DNA of 32,119 nt. It comes from Sphingobacteriales bacterium. Lineage in GTDB: Bacteria; Bacteroidota; Bacteroidia; Sphingobacteriales; Sphingobacteriaceae. The DNA is taken from the NCBI GenBank assembly GCA_004294495.1, contig REAS01000154.1, forward strand, positions 1 to 32,119. The letters are read 5' to 3'. How positions within the stretch are numbered: the first letter of the stretch is position 1; every line of letters begins with the position of its first letter. Below, piece by piece: positions 9,197 through 18,319 of the stretch. The position numbers and the translations under genes were made by a program. The notes beneath the pieces were generated by a model that saw only the letters and a program-made list of their open reading frames with translations, was not told the DNA's origin and searched no databases.

Positions 9197-10305
9197 AATA
9201 TTACTTGGTTTCCGGGGAAGCATCGGGCGATTTACATGGCGCAAACCTAATTAAAACCTTAAAAACGGTTGATAATAATGCCGATTTTAGGTTTTTTGGT
9301 GGCGATTTAATGCAAGCCGAAGGCGGTACATTGGTTAAGCATTATGCCGATATGGCATTTATGGGTTTTTTAGAAGTGGCTTTAAATCTTAAAACCATTT
9401 TAAAAAACATTAGCTTTTGCAAAGCCGATATTTTGGCCTACCAGCCCGATGTTTTAATTCTAATTGATTTCCCGGGCTTTAACCTAAAAATTGCCTCGTT
9501 TGCAAAAAAGCAGGGAATAAAAGTTTGCTACTACATATCGCCAAAAGTGTGGGCTTGGAACCAAAAACGGGTTTTAAAAATTAAACGCGATGTTGATAAA
9601 ATGTTTTGCATTTTACCCTTCGAAGTAGATTTTTATAGGAAATGGGGAATGCAAGTAGAATATGTAGGAAACCCGCTTTTAGATTCCATTGAGAACTTTA
9701 CCCAAAACCCAAACTTTAAAACCGATAATAACCTCGGTAATAAAAAAATAATTGCCCTTTTACCTGGCAGTCGTAAGCAAGAAATAGCGTATATTTTGCC
9801 CGTAATGCTATCGGCAGTAGATAGTTTTACAGATTACCAATTTGTAATTGCAGGTGCACCATCATTTAGTCCTGATTTTTATTTGCCCTACACGGCAGGC
9901 AAAAATATACCCATAATTTTTAACCAAACTTACAATTTATTGCAAAATGCCCATGCTGCAATTGTAACATCGGGTACTGCAACTTTAGAAACCGCATTGC
10001 TTAATATACCCCAAGTGGTGCTGTATAAAGGCAGTAAAATTTCTATTGCTATAGCCCGTTTACTGGTTGATATTAAGTTTATAAGCCTAGTAAATTTAAT
10101 TATGGATAAAGGTATTGTTAAAGAGCTTTTACAAGAAGATTGTACTACCGAAATGCTCAAAACTCAACTCAATTTTATTTTAGCTGGCGAAAAAAGAACC
10201 AAAATGCTTTTAGATTATAAAGATTTAGCGAATGTGATGGGCAAAGCCGGAGCATCGGAAAAAGTGGCTAAATTGGTGTATGGTTGGTTGCAAACTGCGG
10301 TTTAG
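9193..10305 (+). CDS. lpxB: Lipid-A-disaccharide synthase
   Basis: A 370-residue peripheral inner-membrane glycosyltransferase (family GT19) that joins UDP-2,3-diacylglucosamine and lipid X to form the lipid A disaccharide. The N terminus YYLVSGEASGDLHGANLIK is diagnostic. Further family signatures are LIDFPGFNLKIASFAKK, YYISPKVWAWNQKRVLKIK, VEYVGNPLLDSI, LLPGSRKQEI and the sugar-nucleotide-binding VTSGTATLETALLNIPQVVLYK. Length is normal. Translation starts at a GTG (9193-9195) that shares GTGA with the stop codon of the preceding small gene. This start places the SGEASGD motif at residues 6-12, as in homologues. Confidence 0.96.
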   Translation: MKYYLVSGEASGDLHGANLIKTLKTVDNNADFRFFGGDLMQAEGGTLVKHYADMAFMGFLEVALNLKTILKNISFCKADILAYQPDVLILIDFPGFNLKIASFAKKQGIKVCYYISPKVWAWNQKRVLKIKRDVDKMFCILPFEVDFYRKWGMQVEYVGNPLLDSIENFTQNPNFKTDNNLGNKKIIALLPGSRKQEIAYILPVMLSAVDSFTDYQFVIAGAPSFSPDFYLPYTAGKNIPIIFNQTYNLLQNAHAAIVTSGTATLETALLNIPQVVLYKGSKISIAIARLLVDIKFISLVNLIMDKGIVKELLQEDCTTEMLKTQLNFILAGEKRTKMLLDYKDLANVMGKAGASEKVAKLVYGWLQTAV

Positions 10306-10639
10306 ATTTTTGGTGGGATGGTTTGAGTAAGCACTAATAGTTGTGTTTATGTAGTAGTTCTATGGTATTTATTTCTAATTTAATATCCTTTTTTTGCAAA
10401 ATTTAAAAACAAGTAAATTTGTTATTGTTTAATCGACGACTAAATTTTATTTAACAAACCGTAGTCCCCAACATCGCAACCCACGTTTCAGACTAAGGAC
10501 AGGGGGGGGGTGTTGTGTTACTATACTCCATAAAATTCTCCCTTTGATTTAAAAGTGCAAAATTTAAAAAATATAATTTAATTACTATTTATAACGTATA
10601 GATTGTTACTTCAAAATATGTCTTTACTTTTACACCAAC
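10306..10639. other. Gene-free gap with a poly-G run
   Basis: This 334-base gap between lpxB and the acetyltransferase gene holds no reading frame that resembles a protein. It contains a run of nine G residues at 10502-10510, striking in such AT-rich DNA, next to a relatively GC-rich stretch (about 10460-10515). No clear hairpin or tRNA is visible. Confidence 0.6.
10603..10632 (+). promoter_or_regulatory. Possible promoter of the GNAT-crtZ-murB operon
   Basis: TTG at 10603-10605 is followed after 19 bases by TACTTTTA at 10625-10632, a 7-of-8 match to the length and pattern of TAnnTTTG. The implied start of transcription is close to the ATG at 10640, so the leader would be very short. This is a weak to moderate match. 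Confidence 0.35.
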
Positions 10640-11239
10640 ATGCAACCAAACATACCTTTTTCGCAAACCGTAATATTAGAAAACAACGTTGCATTGTTAC
10701 GCCCTATACAAGAAAGTGATTTTCCTCATCTAATAGATTTTGCTTTATTAGAACCCGAAATCTGGGAATTCTCTTTGGTATCAGCCAGTGGCAAGCAAGG
10801 TTTATCAGATTATATTTACGAAGCCATAAAAGCCCAACAAAACCAAACCCAATACACTTTTATAGTTTTTGATAAACGAACAAATACTTATGCCGGCTGT
10901 ACTCGTTTTTACAACATACAACCAACTAATAAAGCACTAAGTTTAGGCTACACTTGGTATGGCAAACAACATCAAGGTACGGGTTTAAACAAAAATTGCA
11001 AATATTTACTACTTAGTTATGTCTTTGAAAACTTGGGTTTTGAGCGGGTAGAATTTAGAGCAGATAAAAACAACAAAAAAAGCATAGCAGCTATGCAAAG
11101 CATTGGCTGCACTATAGAGGGTGTTTTACGTAGCGATTGCTATAAAACCAATGGCACCCCAAGAGATAGCATTGTTCTAAGCATTTTAAAAACCGAATGG
11201 CTAGCTACACTCAAACAACAACTAGCAAATAAATTGTAA
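10640..11239 (+). CDS. GNAT-family N-acetyltransferase
   Basis: A 199-residue acetyltransferase of the RimJ/RimL subgroup. It opens with LLRPIQESDFPHLIDFAL, has a central strand pair (YTFIVFDKRTNTYAGCTRFYNI), the acetyl-CoA-binding region around GYTWYGKQHQGTGLNKNCK, where Q/G-rich residues replace the textbook QxxGxG/A loop, and the RimJ/RimL-type ending VEFRADKNNKKSIAAMQSIGCTIEGVLR. These enzymes transfer acetyl groups from acetyl-CoA to N termini or small amines; the substrate here is not predictable. It is the first gene of a tightly packed set with crtZ (4-base gap) and murB. Nothing looks truncated. Confidence 0.88.
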   Translation: MQPNIPFSQTVILENNVALLRPIQESDFPHLIDFALLEPEIWEFSLVSASGKQGLSDYIYEAIKAQQNQTQYTFIVFDKRTNTYAGCTRFYNIQPTNKALSLGYTWYGKQHQGTGLNKNCKYLLLSYVFENLGFERVEFRADKNNKKSIAAMQSIGCTIEGVLRSDCYKTNGTPRDSIVLSILKTEWLATLKQQLANKL

Positions 11240-11243
11240 AACT

Positions 11244-11696
11244 ATGTGGCAAGCTGCACTAAACATTTGCATTATTTTACTAACCATTGCTGCAATGGAA
11301 GCAGTGTCATGGTGTATTCATAAATACCTTTTCCATGGTCCATTGTGGTTTATACATAAAACCCACCACCAACCACATAAGGGTTATTTAGAGCTTAATG
11401 ATATTTTTAGTTTTGGTTTTGCAATTTTAGCTATGGCTTTAATGTGGCAAGGCCACCAAAATTTAAGCTTAAGCTTTTGGGTAGGTACGGGTATTACGGT
11501 GTACGGCATTATTTATTTTGTTTTTCACGATTGTTTTATACATAACCGCGTAAAAGCCTTTAAAAGTAATAATGTTTATTTATGGGCCATAAAACGGGCT
11601 CACAAAATCCACCATAAATCTTTACAAAAAAAGCCCGCAAGTTTTTTTGGATTGTTGTGGGTTAACAAAAACCAATTAGTTTTGCAAAAAAAATAA
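11244..11696 (+). CDS. crtZ: Beta-carotene hydroxylase (CrtZ type)
   Basis: A 150-residue integral membrane non-heme di-iron oxygenase that hydroxylates beta-ionone rings, turning beta-carotene into zeaxanthin. The four histidine clusters of the family are all present: HKYLFH (His26, His31), HKTHH (His38, His41, His42), HDCFIH (His95, His100) and HKIHH (His120, His123, His124). The LELNDIFSFGFA stretch and HGPLWFIHKTHH match CrtZ better than the longer sterol-desaturase relatives. Membrane helices lie around residues 5-24, 54-68 and 76-94. No other carotenoid gene (crtB, crtI, crtY) is in this window, so the pathway must be completed elsewhere. Confidence 0.9.
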   Translation: MWQAALNICIILLTIAAMEAVSWCIHKYLFHGPLWFIHKTHHQPHKGYLELNDIFSFGFAILAMALMWQGHQNLSLSFWVGTGITVYGIIYFVFHDCFIHNRVKAFKSNNVYLWAIKRAHKIHHKSLQKKPASFFGLLWVNKNQLVLQKK

Positions 11697-11697
11697 A

Positions 11698-12714
11698 ATG
11701 CTAGAAATACAACATAACGTATCGCTAAAAAATTTTAACAGTTTTGGCATCCAAGCTTTTGCAAAATATTTTGTAGAAATTAATACCGAAGAACAACTCA
11801 GCCAATTATTTAACAACTCCCAAATAGTTAAAAACCCCATATTAATTTTAGGTGGTGGCAGTAACTTGCTGTTTACTCAAAATTTTGATGGTGTGGTAAT
11901 TAAAATAAACATAAAAGGTATTAAGCATATAGTTGATAACCAAAATGTACTTGTAACTGCGGGTGCTGGCGAAGTTTGGAACGATTTAGTACTTTATGCG
12001 GTAAACAACAATTTTGCCGGCCTAGAAAACCTATCCTTAATACCTGGCTCGGTTGGTGCATCGCCCATACAAAACATTGGCGCCTACGGGGTCGAGCTTA
12101 AAGATGTTTTTGAAAGTTGCACCGCTTTTGAAATTGAAACACACAAAATTAAAACTTTTTTAAAAGCTGATTGTGCTTTTGCTTATCGCGAAAGCATATT
12201 TAAACAAGCCTTAAAAGGTAAATATATTATTACCAGCGTAACGTTCAATTTAAAGCTTAAAGCCAATTTAAACACACAATATGGCGCTATATCGCAAGAG
12301 CTACACAATCAAAATATACAAAATCCAACCATAAAAAACATTTCGGATGTCGTATCTCAAATACGGGTTTCTAAACTTCCTAACCCAAGCACTATTGGTA
12401 ATGCTGGCTCATTTTTTAAAAACCCAATTGTAACAAAAGACCAAGCAAACCAGCTAATTAAAAACTACCCTCAAATAGTAAATTTTAGTGTAGATGACAC
12501 CCAAGTAAAACTAGCAGCAGGTTGGTTAATAGAGCAGTGTGGCTTTAAAGGTTTGGTAGTTGGCAATACGGGTACGTATAAAAATCAGGCCTTAGTTTTA
12601 GTTAACTATGGCAACGCCTCCGGACAAGAAATTTTTAATTTTTCATCCCAAATTATAGAAACTGTGCAACAAAAGTTTGGTGTTACTTTAGAGCGTGAAG
12701 TAAATATTATTTAA
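11698..12714 (+). CDS. murB: UDP-N-acetylenolpyruvoylglucosamine reductase
   Basis: A 338-residue cytosolic FAD enzyme that reduces the enolpyruvyl group to make UDP-N-acetylmuramate, an early step in peptidoglycan synthesis. The start NFNSFGIQAFAKYFVEI and the FAD-binding ILGGGSNLLFTQNFDGVVI are typical. The signatures SLIPGSVGASPIQNIGAYG, the catalytic arginine in AYRESIF, the catalytic serine in NAGSFFKNP and a glutamate near the C terminus (LEREV) are all in place. The length and YRES-type layout match the E. coli-like type I MurB. It starts one base after the crtZ stop codon, so it is co-transcribed with crtZ and the acetyltransferase. Confidence 0.97.
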   Translation: MLEIQHNVSLKNFNSFGIQAFAKYFVEINTEEQLSQLFNNSQIVKNPILILGGGSNLLFTQNFDGVVIKINIKGIKHIVDNQNVLVTAGAGEVWNDLVLYAVNNNFAGLENLSLIPGSVGASPIQNIGAYGVELKDVFESCTAFEIETHKIKTFLKADCAFAYRESIFKQALKGKYIITSVTFNLKLKANLNTQYGAISQELHNQNIQNPTIKNISDVVSQIRVSKLPNPSTIGNAGSFFKNPIVTKDQANQLIKNYPQIVNFSVDDTQVKLAAGWLIEQCGFKGLVVGNTGTYKNQALVLVNYGNASGQEIFNFSSQIIETVQQKFGVTLEREVNII

Positions 12715-12778: not shown

Positions 12779-12818
12779 ATTTTTGTTTAACTTTTTTTAA
12801 AAAAAGTTAAACAAAAAT
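12779..12818. promoter_or_regulatory. 40-bp perfect palindrome upstream of sigma gene
   Basis: A perfect inverted repeat without any loop is centred between 12798 and 12799. Its arms contain TGTTTAAC (12784-12791) and GTTAAACA (12806-12813). It lies 64 bases after the murB stop and abuts the -33 element of the sigma-gene promoter. The T and A runs mean it could be a bidirectional terminator for murB. Its position and the recurrence of the octamer nearby also fit an operator. Confidence 0.6.
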
Positions 12819-12849
12819 TTGTTTAGTATTAAATTGCGTATTACATTTG
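12818..12849 (+). promoter_or_regulatory. Promoter of the ECF sigma gene
   Basis: TTTG at 12818-12821 is followed after 20 bases by TACATTTG at 12842-12849, a full match to the Bacteroidota vegetative promoter pattern. Transcription would start near 12855, leaving a leader of about 25 bases. TGTTTAA-type octamers overlap the -33 element (12820-12827), overlap the -7 element (12848-12855, TGTTTAAG) and lie just before the start codon (12870-12877, GTTAAACA). Confidence 0.7.
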
Positions 12850-12879
12850 TTTAAGTTTTACAATTAAAAGTTAAACAAA

Positions 12880-13413
12880 ATGACAAGTATAGAATTTAGC
12901 ACCCTAGTTACACGTCAAGCTCCATCTCTAAGAGTTTACGCTTTACGTTTCACTCACGATACTGATGATGCCAATGATTTGGTGCAAGATACCATGTTAA
13001 AGGCAATTACTTATTTTAACAAGTTTAAAGACGGTACAAACTTAAAGGGTTGGTTGTATACCATCATGAAAAATACTTTTATTAACAATTACCGCAGGTT
13101 TATTAAAATAAGCTCGTTTGTTACCAAAACCGACGAAATATCTTCACAACAATTATCATACAGCGCAGCACATAATCAAGGCGAAAATAAGTTTGTAATG
13201 GATGATATTAAAAATGCATTAGGTAATTTGCAAAAAGAATATTATGTGCCTTTTACCATGTATTTTGAAGGATACAAATACCACGAAATTGCCGATCATT
13301 TAGAAATACCCATTGGTACAGTAAAAACCCGAATACACGTTGCCCGTAAAATGTTAAAACAAGATTTAAAAGTTTACGATAATAGCAGTAAAAAACGTTT
13401 ACTACAAGCATAA
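12880..13413 (+). CDS. ECF-type RNA polymerase sigma factor
   Basis: A 177-residue sigma-70 family factor of the extracytoplasmic-function class. Region 2 runs over about residues 10-80 and includes the conserved DANDLVQDTMLKAI segment and GWLYTIMKNTFINNYRR. Region 4 runs over about residues 110-165 and includes YVPFTMYFEGYKYHEIADHLEIPIGTVKTRIHVARKML, a helix-turn-helix for -35 recognition. No anti-sigma gene is adjacent, so control is probably transcriptional or by a distant partner. It resembles the widely conserved Bacteroidota ECF group lacking a linked anti-sigma factor. The gene is flanked by its own promoter and a clear terminator and is therefore monocistronic. Confidence 0.93.
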   Translation: MTSIEFSTLVTRQAPSLRVYALRFTHDTDDANDLVQDTMLKAITYFNKFKDGTNLKGWLYTIMKNTFINNYRRFIKISSFVTKTDEISSQQLSYSAAHNQGENKFVMDDIKNALGNLQKEYYVPFTMYFEGYKYHEIADHLEIPIGTVKTRIHVARKMLKQDLKVYDNSSKKRLLQA

Positions 13414-16289: not shown

Positions 16290-17720
16290 ATGAAAATTCT
16301 ACTTACAGGTGTAACAGGTTATATTGCACAACGATTGTTGCCTGTATTATTAGAAAATAGCCACCAAGTAATATGCTGTGTACGAGACAAACACAGGTTT
16401 AACACCCAAAAATATCCAACCCAAAACCCAACCGTTATTGAAGCCGATTTTCTTAAACCTAAAACGCTTATAAATATTCCGAATGATATAGATTTTGCCT
16501 ATTACTTAATTCACTCAATGTCGGCAAATACAGGCGATTTTGAAAATATGGAGCAAACCTGCGCTCAAAATTTTGTGGAATGTATAAGTAAAACCAATGC
16601 TAAACAAATTATATATCTAAGTGGGATTGTGAATGACAATGTGTTATCAAAGCATTTATCATCAAGAAAAAATGTTGAAGATATTTTAGCAAATGCCAAC
16701 ATACCGCTTACTACATTAAGAGCGGGTATAATTGTGGGTTCGGGAAGCGCATCGTTCGAGATTATAAGAGATTTGGTAGAGAAGCTACCTATAATGATAA
16801 CCCCTTTATGGATAAAAACACGTTGCCAACCAATAGCCATACGTAACGTAGTTGAGTTTTTAAATGGTGTTTTGGGTAACGCACAAACCTTTAATAAAAG
16901 CTACGATATTGGCGGTCCTAATGTATTAACATACAAGGATATGCTTTTGCGTTTTGCTAAAATTAGAGGCTTAGCTAGGCATACTTTTGTAGTACCCGTC
17001 ATGACGCCCAAAATATCATCATACTGGTTATATTTTGTTACTGCTACTTCCTATCCACTAGCCAAAAACTTGGTTGATAGTATGAAGGTTGAAGTAATTT
17101 GTACGCCCAATAATTTAGCGCAACTACTAAACATTAACTTAATAGATTACGATACATCCATAAAATTAGCATTTGATAAAATAGAGCAAAACCAAGTATT
17201 ATCTAGTTGGAAAGATGCCCAAACCAGCGATATTTTAGCAAATGGAATTTCTACATATATAGAAGTGCCTGTAAATGGCTGTTTTAAAGATGTACGTAAA
17301 CGGGCTATAAAAAACGAAAAAAATGTTTTAGATAAGATTTGGGCTATTGGCGGAATAAATGGTTGGTATTATGGCAATTGGCTATGGAAACTTAGAGGAT
17401 TTTTAGACCAACTCACTGGCGGGGTGGGTATGCGCCGCGGCCGACGAAGTCATACAGAAATTGCCCCTGGCGAAGCTTTAGATTTTTGGAGAGTGTTGCT
17501 TGCCAACCGTGAAGAAAAAAGAATGCTTTTATATGCCGAAATGAAATTACCTGGCGAGGCTTGGTTAGAATTTAAAATTTTTGAAAATCATCTAATACAA
17601 ACTGCAACTTTTAGGCCCTTGGGTGTTTGGGGTAGGTTATATTGGTATGCTGTTTACCCATTTCACGGTTTTATTTTTAATGGGATGATTAATAATATTG
17701 TAAACTCCCCAAAACCATAA
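16290..17720 (+). CDS. NAD(P)-binding DUF2867 protein (YbjT-like)
   Basis: A 476-residue two-domain protein. The N-terminal part (about residues 1-290) is an atypical short-chain dehydrogenase/NmrA-like Rossmann domain with the nucleotide motif LLTGVTGYIAQRLLP and an IYLSGI strand. The C-terminal part (about 325-470) matches DUF2867, an SRPBCC-like lipid- or ligand-binding fold, with GGVGMRRGRRSHTEIAPGEAL and the closing GRLYWYAVYPFHGFIFNGM. E. coli YbjT has a related NAD(P)-binding domain. The reaction is unknown; a role in modifying or sensing a hydrophobic ligand is possible. The alkB-like gene starts 2 bases after its stop codon, so the two were probably co-transcribed. Confidence 0.85.
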   Translation: MKILLTGVTGYIAQRLLPVLLENSHQVICCVRDKHRFNTQKYPTQNPTVIEADFLKPKTLINIPNDIDFAYYLIHSMSANTGDFENMEQTCAQNFVECISKTNAKQIIYLSGIVNDNVLSKHLSSRKNVEDILANANIPLTTLRAGIIVGSGSASFEIIRDLVEKLPIMITPLWIKTRCQPIAIRNVVEFLNGVLGNAQTFNKSYDIGGPNVLTYKDMLLRFAKIRGLARHTFVVPVMTPKISSYWLYFVTATSYPLAKNLVDSMKVEVICTPNNLAQLLNINLIDYDTSIKLAFDKIEQNQVLSSWKDAQTSDILANGISTYIEVPVNGCFKDVRKRAIKNEKNVLDKIWAIGGINGWYYGNWLWKLRGFLDQLTGGVGMRRGRRSHTEIAPGEALDFWRVLLANREEKRMLLYAEMKLPGEAWLEFKIFENHLIQTATFRPLGVWGRLYWYAVYPFHGFIFNGMINNIVNSPKP

Positions 17721-17722
17721 TT

Positions 17723-18319
17723 TTGAATTTATTTGATACCCAAACCACCAATTTATTGCCTTATGATGGCGAAGTAAATTACTATTCAAATATATTTACC
17801 CAAACACAAATTGATGATTATTTTAATAACCTATTAACTACTATTGCGTGGCAAAACGACGAGGTAATACTATTTGGCAAGCATATTATTACCCAACGAA
17901 AAGTTGCTTGGTATGCCAATAACGGTTTGAGTTATACATACTCCAATACCACTAAACATGCTTTAGCTTTTACAAAATAATTAAATGACCTTAAAACCAT
18001 TGCCGAAAAATTAGCTAATACTACTTTCAACGCCTGCTTACTAAATATGTACCACAACGGCAGCGTGGGTATGGGTTGGCATAGCGATAACGAAAAATCA
18101 ATTGTACCAAACAGCACTATAGCCTCTTTTAGTTTTGGTGCCGAAAGAAAATTTGCTTTTAAACATAAAAAAAGTAAACAAACGGTTTCAACGGTGTTGC
18201 AAAATGGCACTTTGCTTTTAATGAAAAACACCACCCAAAGCCATTGGTGGCATAGCTTGCCCAAAACTAAAAAAGTTATTACCGCCCGTATTAACCTTAC
18301 GTTTAGGCAAATGATATAA
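17723..18319 (+). pseudogene. alkB: AlkB-like DNA dioxygenase interrupted by one stop codon
   Basis: The frame encodes a 2-oxoglutarate/Fe(II) dioxygenase of the AlkB family, which removes alkyl groups from DNA bases by oxidation. It is interrupted by a single TAA at 17978-17980. Before the stop are the NLLPYDGEVNYY start and RKVAWYANNGLSYTYS, the substrate-binding segment. After it, in the same frame, come FNACLLNMYHNGS, the iron-binding WHSD, a second histidine in SHWWHSLP and the 2-oxoglutarate-binding RINLTFR. With the stop read as one residue the product would be 198 residues, normal for the family. The stop replaces a residue in FTK-x-LNDLK, where a glutamate codon (GAA) is a likely ancestor. 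The start is a TTG coupled to the upstream gene. A sequencing error or readthrough remains possible. Confidence 0.85.

Follow-up and report, generated by a model that had tools for sequence, protein, structure and literature searches.

In Streptomyces, the LitR-LitS light pathway controls the gene for an ECF sigma factor. CarH operators are built from repeats with the consensus TnnACA, according to the cited part of the source (PMC9304148), and in Thermus thermophilus CarH, His132, the cobalt ligand of the light state, is described as important for tetramer disassembly (PMC10442372, in part). The light-inducible genes of the Pseudomonas PmlR2/PplR group include folE and cryB in the available section of PMC9758184. 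One light-induced Chryseobacterium is reported to be without genes of the car and lit operons, as far as the cited portion of that study extends (PMC7064467), and the literature searched, which was mostly literature open without subscription, described no LitR/CarH operator from Bacteroidota.

Here we describe a pair of inverted repeats at the promoter of an ECF sigma factor gene in a Sphingobacteriaceae genome. The two dyads most probably form a bipartite LitR/CarH operator, through which the promoter would be repressed in the dark and released by light, as judged from the sequence and distribution of the sites.

Paired dyads at a sigma factor promoter

The window analysed here is a 32,119-bp stretch with 33.5% G+C, numbered contig C32 in a draft genome of 2.38 Mb. 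It contains a perfect, loopless 40-bp palindrome with 20-bp arms at 12779-12818, the core of which is a distal dyad of the form TTGTTTAA-N16-TTAAACAA (12783-12814, no strand assigned; candidate LitR operator O1). A proximal dyad of identical form, TTGTTTAA-N16-TTAAACAA, with an imperfect core, lies at 12847-12878 (no strand assigned; candidate LitR operator O2), and the two centres are 64 bp apart. The half-sites contain the octamers TGTTTAAC (12784-12791), GTTAAACA (12806-12813 and again 12870-12877) and TGTTTAAG (12848-12855), with a further octamer, TGTTTAGT, at 12820-12827, and the 15-mer at 12802-12816 recurs exactly at 12866-12880. An earlier, sequence-only reading of this DNA had described the palindrome, five octamer sites and the 15-base repeat, and every coordinate proved exact on recheck. 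Its count of five was one too high, as the 12820 octamer coincides with the -33 box of the promoter; the others resolve into two dyads of the same design, and the role of the second dyad as the partner of the palindrome had been overlooked.

The arrangement is exceptional for this DNA. The runner-up among palindromes in the window is 14 bp long, and the longest palindrome in each of 100 dinucleotide shuffles of the window averaged 16.9 bp, with a maximum of 26 bp. The octamer density that had been remarked on also stands out: four TGTTTAA(C/G) octamers fall within 102 bp, compared with no more than one in 92/100 shuffles and two in the remaining 8/100, and the TGTTTAA-N16-TTAAACA dyad was found in none of the 100. 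Over the whole window the bare 7-mer was not enriched (30 found versus 26.6 expected); the unusual feature is how the 7-mers are arranged, rather than their number. Near-dyads occur in the window at 10425-10457 and 13554 and were assigned no role. We also considered the 22-bp spacing of half-sites as two CarH steps of 11 bp, but dropped this idea because the figure changes with the choice of half-site centre, and because the spacer can be N16 or N17.

Downstream lies the proposed regulated gene, which encodes a 177-residue ECF sigma factor (12880-13413, + strand) with Sigma70_r2 and Sigma70_r4_2 matches above the Pfam cut-off. Its -33 box, TTTG (12818-12821, + strand), was assigned from the Bacteroidota -33 consensus and from the conservation of promoter columns, and is overlapped by TGTTTAGT. 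The -7 box, TACATTTG (12842-12849, + strand), lies in conserved columns and matches the Bacteroidota consensus TAnnTTTG, placed at -12 to -5 in the cited excerpt (PMC9723704). With a spacer of 20 bp, the two boxes follow the pattern of Bacteroidota sigma-A promoters and imply a putative transcription start near 12854. The dyads are tightly interwoven with these elements: only 3 bp separate the end of the distal dyad from the -33 box, and the proximal dyad shares the TTTG of the -7 box through its left half, while its right half stops 1 bp 5' of the sigma gene ATG.

Upstream on the same strand lie a gene that had been called murB (11698-12714, + strand), used here as context only, and an FA_hydroxylase-family gene (11244-11696, + strand; PF04116 above cut-off), which we take to be CrtZ-like and which adjoins the murB-sigma pair in several relatives. 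Elsewhere in the window, an AlkB-like 2OG-Fe(II) oxygenase gene (17723-18319, + strand) carries one in-frame stop, and the part 3' of this stop aligns with PF13532, beginning at profile position 103; the gene is either a pseudogene or the product of an assembly error. A run of nine G at 10502-10510, the sole G or C run of at least 7 in the window, sits between a reading frame that ends at 10305 and one that begins at 10640, and is a possible slippage site or assembly artefact.

Half-sites and spacing are conserved

The sequence-only reading had proposed looking for conservation in relatives, and there the half-sites and their spacing are kept. An orthologue of the sigma gene is present in all 18 genomes of the genus, and in 16 of the 18 its promoter carries both dyads with centres 63-65 bp apart, a dyad being scored as kept with at most 3 mismatches in 16 letters (0-2 for the distal and 0-3 for the proximal dyad across the 16). 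Both dyads were also found in 3/3 sampled genomes of a second genus (g5), with a 64-bp offset. The two exceptions in the window's genus are G103, with one dyad, and G108, with neither a dyad nor a half-site upstream of the sigma gene.

In an alignment of dyad-bearing promoters (13 of the 18 genus sequences; G018, G097 and G113 were set aside for being almost identical to G084, and G103 and G108 for lacking the double dyad), 36/46 half-site and promoter-box columns were identical in at least 12/13 sequences, compared with 12/114 columns elsewhere (p = 1e-16). The spacer within the dyads differs among relatives in both sequence and length (16 or 17 bp), so it is the half-sites, and not palindromicity, that are conserved. 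At the position of the 12820 octamer, relatives have TGTTTCC, TGTAGAA, TGATGTT and others, with only the TTG of the -33 box in common; we therefore rejected TGTTTAGT as a fifth site and regard it as that TTG plus chance.

Dyads precede light-associated genes

A search of the draft genome for paired sites, also suggested by the sequence-only reading, returned exactly three full N16 dyads, two of them at the sigma promoter, and no more. The third (C124:6759-6790) lies 31 bp before a gene of the 6-pyruvoyl-tetrahydropterin-synthase (PTPS) family that is followed, in order, by folE, SDR, flavin reductase and TetR genes; TIGR03643 lies before the PTPS gene, and a DASH cryptochrome gene is divergent. 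The additional N17 candidates in the genome were matches with 1 mismatch only (4, versus 2 for the control) and were treated as chance. Upstream of the DUF2867 oxidoreductase gene at 16290, which we take to be a possible light gene, there is no dyad.

Across the family, the N16 dyad occurs in 34/151 genomes, compared with 4/151 for a reversed-pattern control, and the N17 form was present in 38/400. The loci that we fetched contain 84 distinct places with an exact N16 or N17 dyad (81 from one scan and 3 from a further one), 64 of which are upstream of five gene classes: sigma (24), litR (22), PTPS-folE (9), crtI (5) and rhodopsin (4). A script assigned 57 of these places to light-associated genes, and the other 7 (five crtI and two rhodopsin) were assigned via neighbouring frames. 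Of the five crtI phytoene desaturases, four were searched as proteins and all four scored above the NCBIfam CrtID cut-off; three of the four dyad-bearing rhodopsins were searched and all three match PF01036. In one locus (L042), the rhodopsin gene is followed by a Lycopene_cycl-family gene. Each of the nine PTPS-folE places has one exact dyad. The remaining 20 places lack a light-associated neighbour, and some lie inside genes; the litR promoters of the window's own genus showed no clear dyad. An exact N17 dyad in genus g14 (L224, 1501-1533), not counted as a target, stands about 80 bp before a reading frame that is presumably catalase-like.

The draft genome itself (G000) carries LitR, a DASH cryptochrome and the CrtZ-like FA_hydroxylase gene, and G065 is a rhodopsin-bearing relative. 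Phytoene synthase had no match in the draft genome, nor did rhodopsin, for which the search control was also silent. The draft genome may be reduced in this respect, or these genes may lie in its missing part. As neither gene was matched, a light switch here would act on the sigma gene and the pterin-cryptochrome cluster rather than on visible pigment.

A LitR/CarH-type regulator accompanies the dyads

Two MerR proteins are encoded in the genome. One of them, a 295-residue protein on contig C150, has MerR_1 followed by B12-binding_2, both above cut-off, which is the LitR/CarH domain order, and aligns with T. thermophilus CarH (5c8d/3whp) over residues 4-220 with an E value of about 1e-18. The AdoB12-binding residues are nearly invariant among LitR relatives (W131 and H177 in 61/61, E141 and H142 in 60/61, in a set that includes stretches L083-L112), and all four are present in the C150 protein. 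The equivalent of His132 is found in 0/61; Gln takes its place in 39, and Arg, Ala, Leu or Ser in the others; the C150 protein has Gln. As His132 is important for disassembly in T. thermophilus, the light step may differ in Sphingobacteriaceae LitR. Against the NCBIfam CarH equivalog NF052513, the C150 protein scores 97.3 bits versus a cut-off of 400; it is a relative of, but not a member of, this narrow model.

The presence of LitR tracks that of the dyad. LitR was found in 33/34 genomes with an exact N16 dyad versus 29/117 without (p = 5e-15, kinship ignored), the latter being LitR genomes that lack the exact N16 form, and outside the genus in 18/19 dyad genomes versus 27/114 others (p = 3e-9, kinship ignored). 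A named set, comprising 50 of 80 sigma-bearing loci (all those with a dyad at no more than 2 mismatches plus a hand-picked spread), gave LitR in 8/9 with a sigma dyad at no more than 1 mismatch versus 8/41 without (p = 2e-4, kinship ignored). The named genomes overlap the larger genome sample, so the two tests are not independent of each other, and neither are species of one genus within the LitR counts. G108, which lacks the dyads, is also the only member of the genus without a LitR match, and in G065 and G075 litR and the cryptochrome cluster share one short stretch. Exceptions are Daejeonella oryzae (L118), the one dyad-bearing member of the named set that has an exact N17 sigma dyad yet no LitR match at E 1e-20, and L215, which has an exact N17 sigma dyad and whose genome, G077, is absent from the LitR-positive set. 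These two could reflect the recent loss of LitR, a contig absent from the assembly or the action of a different regulator.

A proposed light switch and its alternatives

We propose that in the dark an AdoB12-loaded oligomer of the C150 LitR would bind both dyads at the sigma promoter. As the dyads, about six helical turns apart, bracket the promoter, the bound protein would cover the -33/-7 region, and RNA polymerase would be blocked. Light would break the cobalt-carbon bond and release LitR from the dyads, after which the ECF sigma factor would be made together with the products of the PTPS-folE operon beside the DASH cryptochrome gene. The 64-bp offset, at about six helical turns, would also place both dyads on the same side of the DNA, and bridging by one LitR oligomer is possible; such bridging would not always be needed, as the PTPS-folE operon and the G103 sigma gene have single dyads. 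Binding, repression, light release and any bridging are what we infer from these features.

A wider generalization is about evenly balanced: a Sphingobacteriaceae branch of B12 photoreceptor repressors without His132 would read long-spaced inverted TAAACA dyads in place of tandem direct repeats, paired dyads six turns apart would bridge a promoter, and ECF sigma factor, cryptochrome-pterin, carotenoid and rhodopsin-retinal genes would form a joint light regulon.

The palindrome might instead be a terminator for murB, with the neighbouring octamers arising by chance in AT-rich DNA. It lies 65 bp past the murB stop codon and its RNA folds at -15.5 kcal/mol (z -4.5), yet a terminator scan reported no terminator-like site at 12779-12818, and the stem has hardly any G-C pairs and no U-tract. 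Across 16 folded genomes the energy of the distal dyad ranges from -15.0 to -3.6 kcal/mol, which makes a terminator role doubtful, and no U-tract follows it in any of them, whereas the half-sites are kept even where the hairpin is weakest. Dyads also precede litR, crtI, rhodopsin and PTPS genes, far from murB. We consider this explanation highly improbable and rejected it, the hairpin being unconserved and unlike an intrinsic terminator; the sequence-only reading had named a palindrome that only ends murB transcripts as what would undo an operator, and the hairpin is neither conserved nor followed by a U-tract. Its proposal of a multi-site operator going beyond a terminator is instead upheld by the 16/18 conserved promoters and by the dyads at unrelated transcription units, and an operator role for the dyads is strongly supported by these sequence comparisons. 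Autoregulation by the sigma factor, which it had also entertained, was set aside because many relatives keep the sigma gene without dyads and dyads occur at other genes; the product is an ECF sigma factor and not a repressor, and it is LitR/CarH that tracks the dyads.

Which protein reads the dyads, and to what effect, admits two further alternatives. TetR proteins often bind palindromes, and the last gene of the dyad-bearing PTPS-folE operon, which is kept in L056, L057 and L062, encodes a TetR protein whose C-terminal domain belongs to PF17931. This protein is the most plausible other regulator, and LitR would then co-occur with the dyads only through genes that travel together. We consider this unlikely: in other genera, 22 dyads are directly upstream of litR and 5 of crtI, no TetR match was found in the 3-kb loci of those dyads, the half-site fits the CarH repeat, and LitR is what tracks the dyads. 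Slightly less probable still is that LitR binds but activates, as classical MerR proteins do, or that it mainly uses one dyad and the other is accessory. The single dyads of the G103 sigma gene and of each of the nine PTPS-folE places would suit such an arrangement, but the proximal dyad occupies a repressor position, on the -7 box and next to the start codon, and the 63-65-bp spacing is constant wherever two dyads exist. The characterised CarH proteins are, moreover, dark repressors in the cited parts of PMC9304148 and PMC10442372.

For light sensing in Bacteroidota, these results supply a concrete candidate operator sequence along with its probable targets, and they place rhodopsin, carotenoid, cryptochrome and sigma factor genes under a single predicted B12 light switch. 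They also raise the structural question of how a CarH-like protein would read inverted, widely spaced half-sites and respond to light without His132. Dyads of this kind might also be used in Bacteroidota as promoters controlled by light.

Comparison with known light-responsive operators

The CarH operators of T. thermophilus, Bacillus megaterium and myxobacteria resemble the dyads in their half-site, as the TAAACA of both dyads fits TnnACA. The likeness extends, in the available part of PMC9304148, to sites that overlap promoter elements, a regulator combining MerR and B12-binding domains, and carotenoid genes among the targets. The same source describes those operators as direct repeats of 11 bp, three or four in tandem (PMC9304148), whereas the sites here are inverted repeats with N16 or N17 spacers. 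Two separate inverted repeats bracket the promoter in place of the tandem repeats of a CarH operator, and the regulator lacks the His132 of T. thermophilus CarH.

In Myxococcus, a light pathway controls the gene for the ECF sigma factor CarQ (in the cited part of PMC8156234), as proposed here. CarQ is restrained by an anti-sigma factor, whereas the sigma gene described here appears to be promoter-controlled. Unlike in the LitR-LitS and CarQ systems, litR is unlinked to the sigma gene in the window's genome.

The class II LitR proteins PmlR2/PplR of Pseudomonas do not bind B12 and have a LOV protein partner. They use two sites of the form TGTACA-N12-TGTACA (PMC9758184, in part), and two elements of paired half-sites are likewise present here. 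Their regulon resembles the proposed one in including folE and a cryptochrome gene. The half-site and spacing differ, with N18-N19 separating the hexamers TGTTTA and TAAACA. The closest promoter layout is that of Pseudomonas mendocina PmlR2, where the -35 region carries one site and the other falls between the start site and the ATG, as given in the available section of that study (PMC9758184).
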